DNA from: Lachnospiraceae bacterium
GTDB taxonomy: Bacteria; Bacillota; Clostridia; Lachnospirales; Lachnospiraceae
Length of the DNA: 64,000 bases
Direction of reading: 5' to 3'
Assembly: GCA_024690605.1 (NCBI GenBank)
Contig: JAILOV010000032.1
Coordinates: forward strand, 1-64,000
Shown in pieces: positions 48,403-56,856 of the stretch. A program made the position numbers and the translations under genes. Below the pieces are notes generated by a model. That model searched no databases, was not told where the DNA came from, and saw only the letters and a program-made list of their open reading frames with translations. Every line of letters starts with the position of its first letter. The first letter of the stretch is position 1.

Positions 48403-48432
48403 TTGACCGCGATGATCATATCATGTTATGAT
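48403..48432 (+). promoter_or_regulatory. Promoter for the response regulator and hybrid kinase operon
   Basis: TTGACC (48403-48408), an 18-base spacer and TATGAT (48427-48432) with a TGT extension. Transcription starting near 48439 gives a leader of about 95 bases before ATG 48534. I saw no riboswitch fold in it by eye. Confidence 0.6.
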
Positions 48433-48533
48433 TATCACAGCGATTCCAAAGCAAACGCTAAATCTGTGTGCATCATGAGAAATAAGCAAAATTGACCTCG
48501 CTGACAAATCGAAGTTCTTCTTGGAGGAAAGCC

Positions 48534-49301
48534 ATGGCAAAGAACATTCTCTTTATCGCCAAAGCGGAAACCTTTATCGTGAAGGGGCTCGAAGCCAAAC
48601 TGAAGGGGATCGGCGCCGATCCGGTCTTTGCTCCCTTCCGGCTTCAGGAGATCGAAACGAAGAGTGCGGACACCGATCTGGTAATCCTGTACACGGACGA
48701 TGAGATTGCCGCGAACAATCAGACGCTTGTGTTTCTCAAGGATCTCTGCGCAGGCAGGAACATCCGGATCCTCACGGTCGGCGCCAAAGAAGAGTATGAT
48801 GTCGTGCGGAAATGGATCCCGCAGAGTGTTCTCCTTCCGCTCTGTGAGCGGCCTTTGGACATCGAAAAATTCCTGGACGCCGTGGAGGGCTATTTCGCGG
48901 ACGCGACACAGCAGGAACGAAAGAAGAGCATTCTGATCTGTGATGATGATGTACAGTACATGAGCATGATCATGGACTGGCTTAAGGACAGTTATCGCAT
49001 CTCCGTGGCCAACGGCGGCATGCAGGCAATCACCTGGCTGGCCACGAACCATGCGGATCTGATCCTGTTAGACTATGAAATGCCGATCACTTCGGGACCG
49101 CAGGTTCTGCAGATGATCAAGTCCGAGCCCAAGACCGCCGACATTCCGGTCTTCTTCCTCACCGGTAAAGGGGATAAGGAGAGCATCATGCAGGTGCTTG
49201 CCCTGAAACCGGCGGGTTATCTTCTAAAAACGATCGATAAGGCCGCTCTTCGCAAGACGCTGGAAGAGCATTTTCTGAAGCAGACGGCAAAGGGTCAGTA
49301 A
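48534..49301 (+). CDS. Response regulator with two receiver-like domains
   Basis: The 255-residue protein has an N-terminal domain (about 1-120) shaped like a receiver but without the usual aspartate cluster, and a C-terminal receiver (about 133-252). The latter has the acid pocket CDDD, phospho-acceptor D180 in LILLDYEMP, the Thr of FFLTGKGD and the Lys of GYLLKTI. No DNA-binding or enzymatic output domain exists, so it may act by protein contact or as a phosphate relay between kinases. GGAGG precedes ATG 48534. Two hybrid histidine kinases follow immediately. Confidence 0.87.
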   Translation: MAKNILFIAKAETFIVKGLEAKLKGIGADPVFAPFRLQEIETKSADTDLVILYTDDEIAANNQTLVFLKDLCAGRNIRILTVGAKEEYDVVRKWIPQSVLLPLCERPLDIEKFLDAVEGYFADATQQERKKSILICDDDVQYMSMIMDWLKDSYRISVANGGMQAITWLATNHADLILLDYEMPITSGPQVLQMIKSEPKTADIPVFFLTGKGDKESIMQVLALKPAGYLLKTIDKAALRKTLEEHFLKQTAKGQ

Positions 49302-49311
49302 GGAGAAGACT

Positions 49312-51354
49312 GTGAACGATATAACCAAAGAGAGGCTGATGCTCTTCATCATCACTATGTCCTGCTTCGGCTGCGTGGTCGAAAGTGTTTTCGGCAAGTG
49401 GGAATTCTGGGTCCCGCCGCTTCTTTTCCTCGGAATCGCCGTTCTCTGGTGGCTTCATTTTGCTCAGAAACTGACGCAGCGCGTCAGGTGTGATCTCTAT
49501 TTTGTCTATGCGGCTCTGCTCACCTTTTATCACGGCGTTCATGGCGACAGCTTCTTTGACATCGCGATCATCTGCATGCTCCTGATGGTCACCTTTGCCG
49601 TGCTGGACCTGGACCGTACAGCGCTCCTTCACCTGGTCCTTGTGGAGTATGCCGTCCTGACCGTCATACAGCTCTTTATCCTGCATCCCGGTGAGGGCGT
49701 GCTCAAAGATCCGGTCTCGATCATGCGTCTCGTCCTTCATTCGGGCACATTTTTCTGCATGTATTTCCTCTGTCGCATAGCCGTCGGGAGCAGGATCGCG
49801 TCAAACGCGAGAGTGGAGGAATGGAAGCAGGCTGTCCGCGAAAATGATCATGATATGGAGGACTTCCTTTCCAATATTTCGCATGAGCTGCGCACGCCCG
49901 TTAATGTGGTCAACGGCATGACGACGCTTATGCAGAAGGACAGCGACCGTCAGGAGCTCTCGGCGGTCCGGGATGCCGGGATCCGTCTGTCCCATCAGAT
50001 CGAGGATATCCAGGATTTTACTGAGATCAAGCGCGGCGAACTGATCCCGGAAGAGGAAAACTATATGTGTGTTTCCCTCGTCAACGATGTGGTCTCCTAC
50101 TTCAAGGCAAGCGACAAAAGCCGTGATCTGGAGCTGATCGTGGATCTTGCGCCCGAAACGCCGACCATGCTCAAGGGGGACATCCGCAAGCTTCACAAGA
50201 TCTTCCGTCATCTTCTTGATAACGCCATGAAGTTCACCAGACGCGGCGGCGTATACATCCGGGTGTTCTCGGAACCGCAGAAATACGGTGTCAACCTGAC
50301 GATCGAAGTGACGGATACCGGGATCGGCATGACGCGTGCCGCGATCGCACAGGTATCGAAAGGACTTTATCAGGCCAACAAAAAGAGAAACCGCAGCACG
50401 GGCGGCATCGGGATCGGACTGCCCATTGTTTACGGCATGGTCCACCAGATGAACGGCTTCGTGAACATCAAAAGCGCAAGGGGGAAGGGAACCACGGTTC
50501 ACATCTCCATACCCCAGCAGGTGGTGGATCCTTCCTGCTGTCTGTCCGTGAAGGATCAGATTAAGAGTGAGATCGTTTTCTACACGAAGCCCGAGAAATA
50601 TCTGATACCGGAACTCCGGGATTTCAACAAAGCGATGGCCGTACATCTCGCTTTAGGATTAAAGAAGCATCTCTATTCCGCCGGCACGAAGAGAGAACTG
50701 GAGCATCTCCGGGATGATCTCTCCGTCGGATATATCTTTACCGGTCAGGAGGAATACGAAGCAGAAGCCGGTATGTTTGACTACCTGGCAGGCGAAGGCA
50801 TCCGGGTGATCGTCTATGCGAACAGGAAGCTTTCGGTGGAACCGGCGGCCGGCGTCCTGGTGATCCCCAAACCGCTGTACGGTTTCCCTGTCGTGCGGAT
50901 CCTGAACGGCGAAACGAAAGACTTTGCGTGCACGAACGAACAGAAGCCGATATTCGAAGGCATACGAGCGCTTATCGTGGATGATGAACCCATGAATCTG
51001 GTGGTCGCCTCCGGCCTTCTCCGGGATTACAGGATGATACCGGATACGGCGGAAAGCGGAAAAGAGGCCATTGAGAAGTATACCTCCGGAGACTACGACA
51101 TCATCTTCATGGATCACATGATGCCGGAGATGGACGGTGTGGAGGCGATGAAACGCATCCGGCAGATTGCCATGGAAAGCCAGAGAACACCGGTGATCGT
51201 GGCACTCACGGCGAACGCGTTGAGCGGTGCCCGGGAAATGTTCCTAAAAGAGGGCTTTGACGGATTTATCGCAAAGCCGATCGATATCAGCGATTTCGAG
51301 CGTGTGATGAGACACGTCCTCCCGGATGAATCGGAAGAGAGGGGGGGTCTGTGA
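49312..51354 (+). CDS. Hybrid sensor histidine kinase with pseudo-receiver and receiver
   Basis: The 680-residue protein has about six membrane helices (about 8-165) without an obvious extracellular sensor domain. A HisKA domain with H191 (NISHELRTP) and a HATPase domain follow, with DNAMKF, DTGIGM and GIGIGLP. Next is a receiver-shaped domain (about 415-540) with no phospho-Asp, then a complete receiver (about 548-675) with D601 (IFMDHMMPEMDG) and a conserved Lys in FIAKPID. GTG 49312 is preceded by AAGGAG. The stop overlaps the next kinase as TGATG. Signal unknown. Confidence 0.9.
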   Translation: MNDITKERLMLFIITMSCFGCVVESVFGKWEFWVPPLLFLGIAVLWWLHFAQKLTQRVRCDLYFVYAALLTFYHGVHGDSFFDIAIICMLLMVTFAVLDLDRTALLHLVLVEYAVLTVIQLFILHPGEGVLKDPVSIMRLVLHSGTFFCMYFLCRIAVGSRIASNARVEEWKQAVRENDHDMEDFLSNISHELRTPVNVVNGMTTLMQKDSDRQELSAVRDAGIRLSHQIEDIQDFTEIKRGELIPEEENYMCVSLVNDVVSYFKASDKSRDLELIVDLAPETPTMLKGDIRKLHKIFRHLLDNAMKFTRRGGVYIRVFSEPQKYGVNLTIEVTDTGIGMTRAAIAQVSKGLYQANKKRNRSTGGIGIGLPIVYGMVHQMNGFVNIKSARGKGTTVHISIPQQVVDPSCCLSVKDQIKSEIVFYTKPEKYLIPELRDFNKAMAVHLALGLKKHLYSAGTKRELEHLRDDLSVGYIFTGQEEYEAEAGMFDYLAGEGIRVIVYANRKLSVEPAAGVLVIPKPLYGFPVVRILNGETKDFACTNEQKPIFEGIRALIVDDEPMNLVVASGLLRDYRMIPDTAESGKEAIEKYTSGDYDIIFMDHMMPEMDGVEAMKRIRQIAMESQRTPVIVALTANALSGAREMFLKEGFDGFIAKPIDISDFERVMRHVLPDESEERGGL

Positions 51355-54300
51355 TGAAAAAAACGCTCCGTCGCTTTATCACCGCCTTTGCGGATTATAT
51401 CTATGATCCCACAAAAAGCCTGAAGGACAGGTGCTTTGTTGTCTTTGCCTTCTGCATCGATCTGTCGCTGATCGTGAATCTGGTGAGCGGGATCGTCATG
51501 CATGACTCCCTGTTCTTCATTCTCGGCGTGCTGGCCGGCGGTATCCTGTATATCGCCTATGTGGCCTATGAAGTGACACATAACAAACTGTTCCGGGCAA
51601 GGCTCATTTCCACGCTACTCCTGATGTTCGTGTTGCTTCCCGTCATGTTTTTCCGCAGGGGCGGCATCTACGCGGGCATCCCCATCGCCATGCTCGTCGG
51701 CGGCTACTTTATCATCACGATCCTGGAAGGCAGACTTCAGCGCATCCTGTGCTCGTTGAACGGTCTGATCGTCCTTTCCTGTTTCGTCATCGCCTATTTC
51801 AGACCGGATCTCGTGACCGTCTACTCCACGGAGATGAATTATTTCAATCTCATCCTTCAATTTATCATGGCCGCTTTTGATCTGACGGTGATGATCGCTT
51901 TCAAGACAAAACTCATCCGGAAAGAATCGGAACTCGCCGAGGAAAAGGCCCGGGAGATGGAGGAGATGAACCGCTCACAGAACCGGTTTTTCTCCAGCAT
52001 GAGCCATGAGATCCGGACACCCATCAATACGGTCCTTGGTCTTAATGAGATCATCCTGCGTCAGGAGGACGCCTCGGAAGAGATCCGGAAGGACGCCAAG
52101 AACATCCAGGGTGCAGGCCGCATGCTTCTTGCTCTGATCAATGATATCCTCGATGTCAGCAAGATCGAAGCGGGCAAGATGGACATTGTTCCGGTCAATT
52201 ATCATGTGCCGTCCCTCCTGTCCGAGATTGTGAACATGATCTGGCTCAAGGCAAACGAAAAGGGGTTGGAATTCCAGGTGGATATCGATCCCAATGTGCC
52301 GGAAACGCTCTTTGGTGACGAGGTCCGGATCAAGCAGATCCTCATCAATCTTCTCAATAACGCCGTGAAATACACGCCGTCAGGTTCCGTCAGTCTTCAC
52401 ATGGAATGTGAGTTTCCCGGAGAGAGCGATGCGATCCTCAAACTGAGTGTCACGGATACCGGCATGGGGATCAAACCGGAGGCACTTCCGCATCTCTTTG
52501 ATTCCTTCCAGCGTGTGGACGAGGAGAAAAACCGTCATATCGAGGGCACCGGACTGGGCCTGTCCATCGTGAAGCAGCTGGTCGAACTGATGGGCGGCGA
52601 GATCTCGGTCAACAGCGTCTATACACAGGGATCCACCTTTGCCGTCACATTAAAACAGGGGATCGCTTCCGACAAGCGCGTCGGCGATCTGAACATCGCT
52701 GGCGGTGCCGGGGGAGATGCCGCGGAAAAATTCGAACACAGCTTCCATGCGCCCGAAGCGCGGATCCTCATCGTTGATGACAATGAGATGAATCTGCAGG
52801 TGGAGCAGAAGCTTCTTGCCGGCACCGAGATGGTGGTAGATCTCGCCATGAGCGGCGCGGATGCGCTTTCCCTCACGTTGCGCAACCGCTACGATGTGAT
52901 CTTCATGGATCATCTGATGCCGGGCATGGACGGGATCACCTGTTTCGAACAGATCCGTTCGCAGAAGGGCGGACTCAACTGCAATATTCCCGTCATCGTG
53001 CTTACAGCCAACGCAGGCGGTGAAAACATCGATCTGTACAACAAGACCGGCTTTGACGGATACCTCGTGAAGCCGGTTTCCGGGAAACAGCTGGAGGACA
53101 TGCTGCTCGCGCATCTCCCCGCGGACAAGGTGATGACAAGTGAGAGCAGTGAGCTCACCGGTTCGCAGATCAGCACAGCCAGCGGTTACGTCAAGAAACG
53201 TCCGGTCATCGTCGCCACCAGCAGCATGAGCGATCTGCCGGACAGCATCCTCAGCATGCTGCAGGTCGACACGATCCCTTACACCGTAACAACCGGCGAG
53301 GGGGTCTTCTTCGACAATGTCGATATTGATTCCGAGGAGCTGATCCGTTACATGGGTGATGAGCACCGCTTTGCGACCTCGGATCCGCCGTCTCAGGATG
53401 CTCTGGTGCGATTCTTCTCCGATGAGCTCAAGAAATCGCATCATCTGATCTATATCACGCTGTCGACCGGTAGCAGCAGAGAGTATGCGTTCGTGATGGA
53501 AGCGGCCAAAACCTTTGACAATGTTTCGGTCGTCAATTCCGAAAACATATCCAGTGCGGCCGGTATCCTTGTGATGATCGCGGCAAAACTGGTCCAGCAG
53601 AATCTTCCCGTGGACAGGATCCTTTCCGAGCTGGAGGAGGCAAAGAAGCGGATCCGCTGCAGCTTTGTGATAAAGAGCACGGATATCATGGCCCGACGTG
53701 GCCACATCAAGCCGCTGGTGAACAGCATCCTGACCACGCTGTGGTTAAGGCCCGTGCTCCGTGAGAAAAACGATAAGCTTGGCGTTGACCGGTTCTTTAT
53801 CGGAAGCGAGAAGAGCTGTTATGAAAAGTATATCCGCAGAGAGTTTTCCGGAAAGGTCCGTCCGGACACCTCCTTTGTGTTTATTACCTACGCCGGGATG
53901 TCGGAGGAGGATCTTCTCTGGATCGAAAAACTGGTCAGAGAGCGGGGAGGCTTCGAACACATCATCTTCCAGAAGGCTTCCGCCGGTATCACTTCCAATT
54001 GCGGCGACGGCACCTTCGGCTGCCTGTATCTGGAAGCGGGTGACCGCAACTACGGTCTCGCATCGATCTTTGCCAAGATCGAAGAAGATGAGGAACGCTA
54101 CGAATCCTCGCTGAGCATCCAGGAAGAAGATGACGACGGGGAGGATGCTGCCGTGGAACACGGTACGGTTGCCGTTCCGTCGGAAAGCATCGAACAGGAG
54201 AAGGCCGAAAAGAAATGGTATGAAGAGATCCCGGGGATCGATCCGGCCGCGGCACTCAAGAACAGCGGGTCCGAGGATGCATTTCTTTCGGTGCTGAAGA

Positions 54301-54782
54301 TCTATCACGATTCCTTTGAGACCAGATCAAAAGAGATCCGGGATTATTATGAAGCTGAGGACTGGGAGAACTACACTATCAAAGTGCACGCCCTAAAGAG
54401 CAGTTCACGTCTCGTCGGCGCCATTCGGATGGGAGAGGCCGCCGAAGCGCTGGAGATGGCCGGGAAGCGTTCGGATGTCGATTTTATCAGGGAGCATCAT
54501 GACGCGCTGATGAAGGATTACCGGACTATCCATGATGAACTTGCCGCACAGTACGGGCCCGGAGACGATCTGCCCGAGATCCCCGCGGACACTCTGGGGG
54601 AGGCCTATGCGGCAATTGAAGAGTTCTCGCAGGCCAAAGACTATGAACTGGCGAAAATGGTCATGGACTCCCTTAAGGAGTTCCGGCTTCCCGCAGCGGA
54701 TGACGAACGCATGCGCGGCATACAGGAAAAACTCGCAAAAATGGACTGGGACGGGATCCTGGACATTCTGAAGGGGAGTTGA
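51354..54782 (+). CDS. Hybrid histidine kinase with receiver, DegV lipid-binding domain and Hpt domain
   Basis: The 1142-residue protein has about six membrane helices (about 25-180), HisKA with H218 (SMSHEIRTP), HATPase (DTGMGI, GTGLGLSI) and a receiver with D519 (VIFMDHLMPGMDG). Residues about 613-900 then match a DegV/EDD fold: SDLPDSIL, VDIDSEEL, TSDPPSQD, TLSTGSSREYA, and a segment near RRGHIKPLVNSILTTLW. DegV-family proteins (FakB) bind fatty acids. An Hpt domain follows (about 955-1040) with H1012 in KVHALKSSSRLVGA. A C-terminal helical tail completes it. The first DegV motif reads TSS where DST is usual, but the Thr/Ser carboxylate-binding positions look retained. ATG 51354 overlaps the previous stop. 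Confidence 0.88.
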   Translation: MKKTLRRFITAFADYIYDPTKSLKDRCFVVFAFCIDLSLIVNLVSGIVMHDSLFFILGVLAGGILYIAYVAYEVTHNKLFRARLISTLLLMFVLLPVMFFRRGGIYAGIPIAMLVGGYFIITILEGRLQRILCSLNGLIVLSCFVIAYFRPDLVTVYSTEMNYFNLILQFIMAAFDLTVMIAFKTKLIRKESELAEEKAREMEEMNRSQNRFFSSMSHEIRTPINTVLGLNEIILRQEDASEEIRKDAKNIQGAGRMLLALINDILDVSKIEAGKMDIVPVNYHVPSLLSEIVNMIWLKANEKGLEFQVDIDPNVPETLFGDEVRIKQILINLLNNAVKYTPSGSVSLHMECEFPGESDAILKLSVTDTGMGIKPEALPHLFDSFQRVDEEKNRHIEGTGLGLSIVKQLVELMGGEISVNSVYTQGSTFAVTLKQGIASDKRVGDLNIAGGAGGDAAEKFEHSFHAPEARILIVDDNEMNLQVEQKLLAGTEMVVDLAMSGADALSLTLRNRYDVIFMDHLMPGMDGITCFEQIRSQKGGLNCNIPVIVLTANAGGENIDLYNKTGFDGYLVKPVSGKQLEDMLLAHLPADKVMTSESSELTGSQISTASGYVKKRPVIVATSSMSDLPDSILSMLQVDTIPYTVTTGEGVFFDNVDIDSEELIRYMGDEHRFATSDPPSQDALVRFFSDELKKSHHLIYITLSTGSSREYAFVMEAAKTFDNVSVVNSENISSAAGILVMIAAKLVQQNLPVDRILSELEEAKKRIRCSFVIKSTDIMARRGHIKPLVNSILTTLWLRPVLREKNDKLGVDRFFIGSEKSCYEKYIRREFSGKVRPDTSFVFITYAGMSEEDLLWIEKLVRERGGFEHIIFQKASAGITSNCGDGTFGCLYLEAGDRNYGLASIFAKIEEDEERYESSLSIQEEDDDGEDAAVEHGTVAVPSESIEQEKAEKKWYEEIPGIDPAAALKNSGSEDAFLSVLKIYHDSFETRSKEIRDYYEAEDWENYTIKVHALKSSSRLVGAIRMGEAAEALEMAGKRSDVDFIREHHDALMKDYRTIHDELAAQYGPGDDLPEIPADTLGEAYAAIEEFSQAKDYELAKMVMDSLKEFRLPAADDERMRGIQEKLAKMDWDGILDILKGS

Positions 54783-54807
54783 AAAAAAGGCGAAAAAGAG
54801 ATAGAAT
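54779..54807 (+). promoter_or_regulatory. Promoter for the chemotaxis receptor gene
   Basis: TTGAAA (54779-54784), a 17-base spacer and TAGAAT (54802-54807). The -35 overlaps the stop codon of the DegV-containing kinase. A leader of about 33 bases carries GGGAGGAG before ATG 54847. Confidence 0.7.
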
Positions 54808-54846
54808 AGCATCGTGTTTTTGTTATTTCAGGGAGGAGTCATCACG

Positions 54847-56856
54847 ATGAAAAAGAGAAAATCGCTCAAATGGTCACTGCTTTCAAAGATCATCATCTAT
54901 GTCGCGATCCTGATCGTGATCATCACGCAGATCAGCATCAAGCTGGCCGCGGATAACATCGAATCGCTGACCTATAACATTCTTGCCAGAGAATCGGCGA
55001 CTTATGCCGCGGAGATCCACAGCTGGTGGCAGAGCATTGAGGAACGGGTGGGGCAGACAGCGAATGTCATCAAGAATGCTCCGGAAATGTCCTATGACGA
55101 CACGCTGACGATGCTCCTTGCGCTCACCAAAGACGATCCGGACTCTCAGGACATCTATATAGCCTACGGCGATGATTCGGTGTTCCTGGACGGCTCCGGC
55201 TGGATCCCGGACGACACCTTTGTCTTTACCGACAGACCCTGGTATCAGGGCGCTCTGGCCAAAAAGGGAGAAATCTATTCTTCGGAGCCCTATGTGGATG
55301 CTTCGACAAGCAAGACATGCCTTGCCTGTGCCGTCATGTTGAGCGACAACGTGATCCTGAGCAGCGATATCAACTTTGACAAGGTCGCGGAAAAGGTGAA
55401 GGGCTTTTCCTCCATCTCACCGGATGCCAAATACTACATCATCAACAAAGAGACCAAGGATATCCTGATCAGCAATGTGCCTGCCAGTGTCGGGCAGACG
55501 CTGATCAACACCACGGATCCTGTTGCCTCCGGTCTTTCCTCCGTGTTTGATTCGCTGAACACCGCTGCAACCGCTGACGGGAGCAAGGTGAAGACCGTCA
55601 AGACGTCCGCCGGCTCCATGATGTTCACGGCCACTGACATTACGGACACCTCATGGGTCGTGGTGAGTGCCGTTCCTTCTTCGCTCCTCAGCGACAGTAT
55701 CGTCAAGGTTATGATCATCACCTTTGCCAGCGCGATCCTGCTGCTCATCCTGCTCTCCATTCTTCTGTTCTTCAGCATCAGCAGAGCGATCAATCCGGTG
55801 ACCACGGTCACGGAACGCATCACGGACATCAGCAAGGGTGACTTCACCGTGACGCTCGTGCCGGAGGGCAACAACGAGATCACGACGCTCAGCGAGAGCC
55901 TGAACGGCTATATCGAGAAGATGCGGTCGACGCTGAACAGCCTGTCCGGTATTTCCGGAGAGATGAACAGCAGGGCGGGAGAGTGCTTCGATATCTCCCA
56001 CACGCTCTCAGACGCCAACCAGAATCAGGGCGAATCCATCGAGAAGCTCAATGACACATTGAACGGCATGAACGAATCCATCGAAGATATCGCACGCGCC
56101 GCTTCGGAGCTCGCCGACACATCGAGCCAGCTGGCCGGCAGCGCTGCGGATGTCCGGAGCCTCTGCGACGAGACCATGGAGGCCTCCGGCAAGGGCAAGA
56201 GCGAGATGGAAGCCATGACCAGAAACGTGAACACATTGAACGACACCATCGGCGAGCTCACCGCACTGATCAAGGTCACCGCCAAATCCGTCGAGGAGAT
56301 CACCGGGATCACGGCTACCATCAATGCCATTTCCGCACAGACAAACCTGCTCTCGCTCAATGCTTCCATTGAGGCGGCAAGAGCCGGTGAGATGGGCAAA
56401 GGCTTTGCGGTCGTCGCGCAGGAGGTCGGCATCCTCGCCAATCAGTCCTCCGAAGCCACCGATACCATCCGCAAGCTGATCGATGAGATCACGCAGAACA
56501 TTGAAGACATCAACAAGAAAGCGGATATCTGCGTCACCGACATGGATGCCTGCATCAGCGGCGTCGAAGGCGCCAACGAATCCTTCCGCACGATCTATGA
56601 GGATGTTGCCAAGGCGACCGAGGGGATCGTTGCGATCGCGAGCGGCATCGAACGCATCAACGACGTCGCCTCCAGCAACGCGACCACTACGCAGGAACAG
56701 GCTTCCAGTATCAACGAGGTGCTGGGCTTAAGCGATCAGATCGTGTCCGAGAACAACAAGCTTCGTGAGGAGACCGCAAATATCACGAGCATTTCCGAAA
56801 ACCTCAACCGGTATTCGGATGAGATCAATTCCGACCTGTCGCAGTATACGCTGTGA
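54847..56856 (+). CDS. Methyl-accepting chemotaxis protein with Cache sensor
   Basis: The 669-residue receptor has an N-terminal membrane helix (about 12-34), an extracellular double-Cache-like domain (about 35-285; [17 protein letters not shown] is typical), a second helix (about 290-315), a HAMP domain, and a cytoplasmic signalling domain with the hairpin tip [20 protein letters not shown] and [15 protein letters not shown]. It transmits ligand binding to CheA-CheW, although no che genes are in the window. ATG 54847 is 8 bases after GGGAGGAG; the frame extends back to GTG 54814 without a ribosome site. The gene has its own promoter. Confidence 0.95.

Follow-up and report, generated by a model that had tools for sequence, protein, structure and literature searches.

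A DegV-bearing hybrid histidine kinase paired with a second kinase in Lachnospiraceae: a candidate lipid sensor that may control cyclic di-GMP

Two adjoining hybrid kinases, one with an embedded DegV domain

The window analyzed here is a stretch of 64,000 nucleotides, positions 1–64,000 of the forward strand of contig JAILOV010000032.1 (Lachnospiraceae bacterium, assembly GCA_024690605.1). At 51354..54782 (+) it encodes a protein of 1142 amino acids that an earlier, sequence-only reading had described as a hybrid histidine kinase with an embedded DegV domain; matches to Pfam and TIGR00762 confirmed that description, and we term the protein the DegV kinase (of the long form, defined below). Directly upstream lies a gene overlooked in that reading, encoding a partner hybrid kinase of 680 amino acids (49312..51354, +) with the order HisKA-HATPase-REC (REC, receiver) and, by Pfam and by the pairing rule described below, no Hpt.

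The domain order of the DegV kinase is HisKA, HATPase, receiver, DegV and Hpt, every one scoring above its Pfam curated cut-off. The N-terminal region of about six helices (51354..51923, +), seen in AlphaFold2 secondary structure and in its hydrophobic sequence, is probably membrane-embedded. There follow on the same strand HisKA at 51978..52175 (residues 209–274; 61.6 bits; H218 codon at 52005–52007), HATPase_c at 52314..52658 (residues 321–435; 99.1 bits; pattern matching locates the N, G1 and G2 boxes), the receiver at 52764..53105 (residues 471–584; 78.8 bits; D519 codon at 52908–52910), DegV at 53211..54032 (residues 620–893) and Hpt at 54291..54491 (residues 980–1046; H1012 codon at 54387–54389). 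Predicted disordered linkers flank DegV on both sides, at residues 597–614 and at residues 915–951 (54096..54206, +; predicted local distance difference test below 50), the latter joining it to Hpt. The phosphorelay residues H218, D519 and H1012 are intact, and invariant in all 57 proteins of an alignment (A4).

An assembly chimera or a chance domain match was ruled out by the Pfam domains, the fold prediction and a protein search with residues 600–920. This search returned 171 proteins including the query; among the best 120 listed, 118 were of at least 1100 amino acids, and the rows naming a source gave Lachnospiraceae, including one Butyrivibrio isolate.

A DegV fold with an altered fatty-acid site

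The DegV domain matched PF02645 at 121.5 bits (cut-off 27) over profile positions 4–278 of 280, and TIGR00762 at 124.4 (cut-off 99.7). Its DegV fold was predicted with very high confidence, and DegV/FakB structures, many titled as fatty-acid-bound, stood at the top of a fold search. Profile match, structure prediction and fold search thus bear out the claim that residues 610–900 form a DegV fold of the fatty-acid-binding type.

The accessible text of PMC8892158 describes a FakB1 carboxylate network of Thr62, Ser95, Ser171 and His270, requires Arg173 in catalysis, gives Arg205 a key role in binding FakA, and calls both arginines completely conserved in FakB. We placed these positions by motif and hand-counted spacing on the pneumococcal FakB1 sequence (6dke), not by superposition, and the His270 position on a free-standing DegV of the source genome. 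The window domain has Ser, Ser, Arg, His, Ile and Asn at Thr62, Ser95, Ser171, Arg173, Arg205 and His270, respectively. Ser676, Ser708 and Asn882 are the aligned equivalents of Thr62, Ser95 and His270; the first of these shifts by one residue in an alternative alignment (Thr675 instead of Ser676), with a hydroxyl in both. The sequence-only reading had stated that the Thr/Ser positions holding the carboxylate were retained. This stands for the hydroxyls of Ser676 and Ser708, but the network's Ser171 and His270 are lost, as are Arg173 and Arg205, and the replacements of His270, Arg173 and Arg205 reflect clade-wide losses. On these residues, the domain looks like a binding protein uncoupled from the FakA reaction.

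Counts were made over 47 kinase-linked domains (30 short-form, 13 long-form and four free-standing beside kinases, with the contig-cut L080 excluded) and 23 other DegV domains. Both hydroxyls were found in 30 of the 47 versus 23 of the 23, Arg173 in 16 versus 23, Arg205 in only one versus 21, and His270 in one versus 22. Asn replaced His270 in 42 kinase-linked domains and in none of the others, so this substitution marks the kinase-linked clade; it is already found in the clade's free-standing members. Both hydroxyls are present in 12 of the 13 long forms. In the window protein's closer relatives Ser708 is invariant, and the two hydroxyl positions together are invariant or nearly so. At the Ser171 position (residue 782 of the window protein, 53697–53699), 10 of the 13 long-form domains have Arg or Lys; a positive charge there, near the carboxylate site, could replace lost contacts. 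An estimate of tunnel width from the FakB1 Ala121 and Ala158 positions was dropped, the alignment being too unsure at these points.

Small phosphodonors are able to charge receivers, and DegV is the receiver's neighbor in the chain. With a FakA in the genome (one match), the DegV domain might then hold a FakA-made fatty acyl-phosphate and give the phosphate directly to the receiver Asp; the near-total loss of the FakA-docking Arg205 from kinase-linked domains, and the retention of the catalytic Arg173 in a minority of them, make this scarcely credible. A different departure from FakB would be a sensor of ligands other than free fatty acids, with a separate small or lipid-like molecule for every paralogue, in the manner of PAS domains. 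The ligand end does vary among paralogues: residues at the Ser95 position of the 30 short forms include S, E, A, G, D, R, C and V, and the six other DegV domains of the source genome's kinases share only 23–45% identity with that of the window, whereas among the closer relatives of the window protein Ser708 does not vary. By contrast, the retention of both hydroxyls in nearly all long forms and the fatty-acid-bound titles among the top fold matches speak for a fatty acid, and we judge a non-fatty-acid ligand unlikely.

Kinase pairing, Hpt placement and origin

The window unit is one of seven such units in its genome. DegV matches number 11 in the source assembly (2.76 Mb in 79 contigs, 95% complete). 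Four of them stand free, and the other seven lie within hybrid kinases, three of the long form (∼1140 amino acids, with the Hpt region at the end) and four of the short form (∼890 amino acids, with DegV at the end). All seven of these kinases directly follow a hybrid kinase gene; taking longest frames, six overlap it and one starts 13 bases on.

We extended the comparison to a first set of 40 further loci from other genomes, a non-random choice of high-scoring survey rows that includes four free-standing DegVs, annotated with profiles built from the source genome's domains. Counting the seven from the source genome, 42 kinases had the full HisKA-HATPase-REC-DegV order, and a partner hybrid kinase was in view for all except L025, L028, L030, L035 and L046. 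In each of these 37 pairs an Hpt match was found on just one kinase. Another 80 named loci, selected by means of the peptide NCGPGTFG, made up a second set and likewise showed one Hpt per pair in 69 of 69, all of the short form; the 13 of its 82 DegV frames with no partner in view comprise seven that leave the stretch, four that begin <1.9 kb from its end, and two (L145 and L150) with the kinase split over two frames. For the resulting 106 pairs, the Hpt histidine is on the DegV kinase in 12, on the partner in 91, on both in none and on neither in three. The partner's Hpt match is degenerate in these three (L011, L053 and L114), reaching only 14 bits in L053, below the threshold used, while Pfam finds no Hpt in L011:1865-4315, a short-form partner of the source genome; in all three a separate REC-Hpt gene just upstream carries the histidine (L011:859-1863, L053:9666-10640 and L114:7369-8307). 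A further source-genome pair, L014, has a REC-Hpt gene besides a good Hpt on the partner, so the one-Hpt rule covers the two kinases and not all Hpts nearby. A DegV kinase in which HATPase was detected but neither HisKA nor receiver (L061:6290-8878) is perhaps a degenerate member.

Two quick trees, made without bootstrap and with 32 of 68 and 35 of 92 inner branches supported below 80, bear on origin. Among 71 DegV domains, the 48 kinase-linked ones (the 47 counted above and L080) form one clade, with a Shimodaira–Hasegawa-like approximate likelihood ratio of 99. Short and free-standing forms lie at its base, with two changes between long and short forms. The basal free-standing DegVs (L055, L056 and L057) each directly follow a HisKA-HATPase-REC-Hpt kinase, and L054, a fourth, comes after a DegV-kinase-type kinase with a frame that stops short of DegV, a separation that may reflect either a genuine split or a slip in sequencing. 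In the kinase-core tree, 42 DegV kinases fall on one side of a branch (support 78), distant from their partners, and the kinases beside free-standing DegVs have as their nearest neighbors the upstream kinases at L054, L051 and L052. This fits an order of steps in which a DegV gene stood beside a kinase, was then fused to a second kinase, and the Hpt afterwards moved.

Kinase linkage as a general DegV trait was rejected, based on 20 other high-scoring DegV loci; in 17 of them there was no HisKA or HATPase near DegV within the stretches examined. The others are L080, a contig-cut REC-DegV frame, and L072 and L081, where DegV comes after a classical kinase and a response regulator. The free-standing DegVs of the latter two (L072:4789-7411 and L081:3286-6005) are sisters (support 100) that fall outside the kinase-linked clade, so DegV may have become linked to kinases on more than one occasion.

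The sequence-only reading had proposed that fatty acid at DegV controls transfer from D519 to H1012 within one chain. The REC-DegV-Hpt order of the window protein and its DegV fold agree with such a gate, yet it is not a conserved design: 30 of the 43 DegV kinases in the DegV tree have no Hpt after DegV, the Hpt being found as a rule on the partner kinase or, rarely, on a REC-Hpt protein. The basal position of short and free-standing forms, the two form changes, and the predicted disordered linkers around DegV, which argue against a rigid gate, weigh in the same direction, and we consider the gate quite improbable. Regular pairing, the loss of several FakB residues, and the free-standing DegVs beside kinases, which would need to work by protein contact, would also suit a DegV domain that no longer binds ligand and serves as a docking or dimerization module joining the two kinases. 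Its fold, however, is predicted with very high confidence and matches liganded structures, and hydroxyl positions kept (nearly) invariant in relatives would be needless in a pure scaffold; this explanation we rate as doubtful.

A taxonomic survey of DegV-kinase fusions had been suggested along with the sequence-only reading. Frames of at least 800 amino acids with DegV occurred in 13 of 18 other genomes of the source's own genus, versus 0 of 12 genomes from the order's other families. With frames of at least 500 amino acids, the count was at least 47 of 299 genomes drawn from the family (the source included); outside it there were one in 246 genomes from the order (G542), two in 291 from the class (G600 and G674) and none among 299 from the phylum, all survey matches at these three levels having E ≤ 1e-58, such that more distant fusions would escape. 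Titles among the best 80 of 352 named loci refer to goat, sheep, water buffalo, yak or water deer (29), carry RUG or RUI codes, which we take to be rumen genomes (39), or are of other kinds (12); NCBI families for the same 80 are Lachnospiraceae (44), Oscillospiraceae (15), Eubacteriaceae (4) or not given (17).

Cyclic di-GMP neighbors, proposed mechanism and known systems

Cyclic di-GMP (c-di-GMP) genes adjoin 66 of the 106 pairs. By local profiles, the gene immediately upstream (≤250 bases away, on the pair's own strand) carries GGDEF or HD-GYP in 17 of 37 and 49 of 69 cases for the two groups of pairs. Ten neighboring receiver proteins, hand-picked among the larger ones, all combine REC with GGDEF, HD-GYP or both by Pfam. 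Loci holding a GGDEF or HD-GYP gene numbered 24 of 40 (L054–L057 of these having been chosen as free-standing DegVs), 57 of 80, and three of six in the source genome, versus one of 20 control loci that came partly from other lineages. A weak EAL domain (35.7 bits) is found in the product of L014:6818-8518, directly downstream of a source-genome DegV kinase.

In the window, the apparent operon's first gene (48492..49301, +) encodes a response regulator of 269 amino acids with its receiver at residues 147–257 (Response_reg, 72 bits) and no output domain found by Pfam; it ends 10 bases before the partner kinase. A promoter-like site precedes it at 48403–48432, a consensus match only, of a kind no commoner than in shuffles. 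Response regulators of 251–269 amino acids with the receiver in the C-terminal half, and ∼130–145 N-terminal residues that have no Pfam match, were found repeatedly near kinase pairs (window 48492–49301, L014:5048-5815, L015:14204-14962 and L011:7028-7783). A chemotaxis receptor gene (54814–56856) starts 31 bases past the DegV kinase and may have its own promoter; a promoter-like site, again by consensus match only, lies at 54779–54807.

The loss of FakA contacts from a carrier-fold domain suggests a lipid sensor, one that may control c-di-GMP. We give somewhat better than an even chance to a phosphorelay unit of two kinases in which the DegV kinase contributes the DegV domain, a carrier fold turned lipid receptor, and in which c-di-GMP is the usual output. 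The ligand of the DegV domain would be amphipathic, with a fatty acid or related lipid from the membrane the likeliest candidate, and its binding would change how active the kinase core is or how it pairs. Judging from domain anatomy, phosphate would pass from His218 to Asp519 and on to the Hpt carried by the kinase pair, at His1012 in the window unit and, for nearly every short-form unit, on the partner. From there it would reach the operon's receiver proteins. As these bear GGDEF or HD-GYP in most relatives, gene order points to c-di-GMP level as the usual output; the response regulator adjoining the window unit has no output domain. Because FakA-docking and catalytic residues are lost, no hand-over of ligand to FakA is expected, unlike for FakB. 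We advance more tentatively a broader account in which carriers that left the FakA pathway, at first standing free as partners to a hybrid kinase and later fused to a second one, became widespread lipid receptors of gut Clostridia, acting through two-kinase units with a movable shared Hpt and setting c-di-GMP according to membrane or dietary fatty acids.

Several observations weigh against this mechanism. Only 14 of the 30 short-form domains have Ser or Thr at the Ser95 position, so that one carboxylate-binding mode cannot fit all, and the most diverged source-genome copy (L011:4312-6975) lacks both the Ser at that position and the Asn. No GGDEF or HD-GYP gene is directly beside the window's own kinase pair. 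The source genome has a dense c-di-GMP gene set (42 GGDEF and 23 HD_5 matches in 2.76 Mb), and some nearness is therefore expected by chance; by a rough hand estimate from this density, about a quarter of 13-kb stretches would hold such a gene. Among the genome's seven partner kinases the G2 pattern was matched in five and the N-box pattern in none, although the latter pattern may be too narrow, with Pfam detecting HATPase in all seven. The full-length model arranges the domains at a predicted template modeling score of just 0.37, and the true sensor could lie in the membrane region, with DegV as an accessory.

If the proposed mechanism is true, gut and rumen Clostridia have a direct route from fatty acid to c-di-GMP-controlled behavior, and the steps by which a metabolic carrier became a receptor can be seen: standing free next to a kinase, then fused, then in seven copies. 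One Hpt per kinase pair, wherever placed, offers a testable indication that the two hybrid kinases work as a single relay, and what DegV kinases sense becomes accessible to simple biochemistry. There is also a caution here, that not every DegV protein should be called a fatty-acid carrier.

A literature search, with most subscription papers outside its reach, found no description of a DegV kinase in what was accessible of the papers it listed; the accessible parts of PMC3146951 and PMC12688256 treat other DegV proteins. From FakB/DegV proteins (PF02645, TIGR00762) the window domain differs in sitting within a hybrid kinase and in having lost Arg173, Arg205 and His270. The best NCBIfam matches, to hybrid kinases of the BarA, TorS and LuxQ types, have the HisKA-HATPase-REC core in common with the DegV kinase, but score far under curated cut-offs, and in the 25 rows listed their best-matching stretches reach no further than residue 606, short of DegV. 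DhaQ is a regulator built on a dihydroxyacetone-kinase subunit fold; it works with a transcription factor, not with a histidine kinase. The sequence-only reading knew of no fatty-acid-sensing phosphorelay of this form, which agrees with our search as far as DegV kinases go but not for fatty-acid-sensing hybrid kinases at large: the accessible text of PMC5391125 describes RpfC, a hybrid kinase with REC and Hpt that senses the fatty acid diffusible signal factor by binding it through a 22-residue N-terminal segment, and RpfG, its HD-GYP response regulator. Shared with RpfC/RpfG are the hybrid kinase, hydrophobic helices, REC, Hpt and the proposed fatty-acid signal. REC-HD-GYP or REC-GGDEF genes often adjoin relatives, though not the window's own pair. 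Unlike RpfC, the system described here has a DegV domain in place of the N-terminal segment, and its two kinases have a single Hpt.
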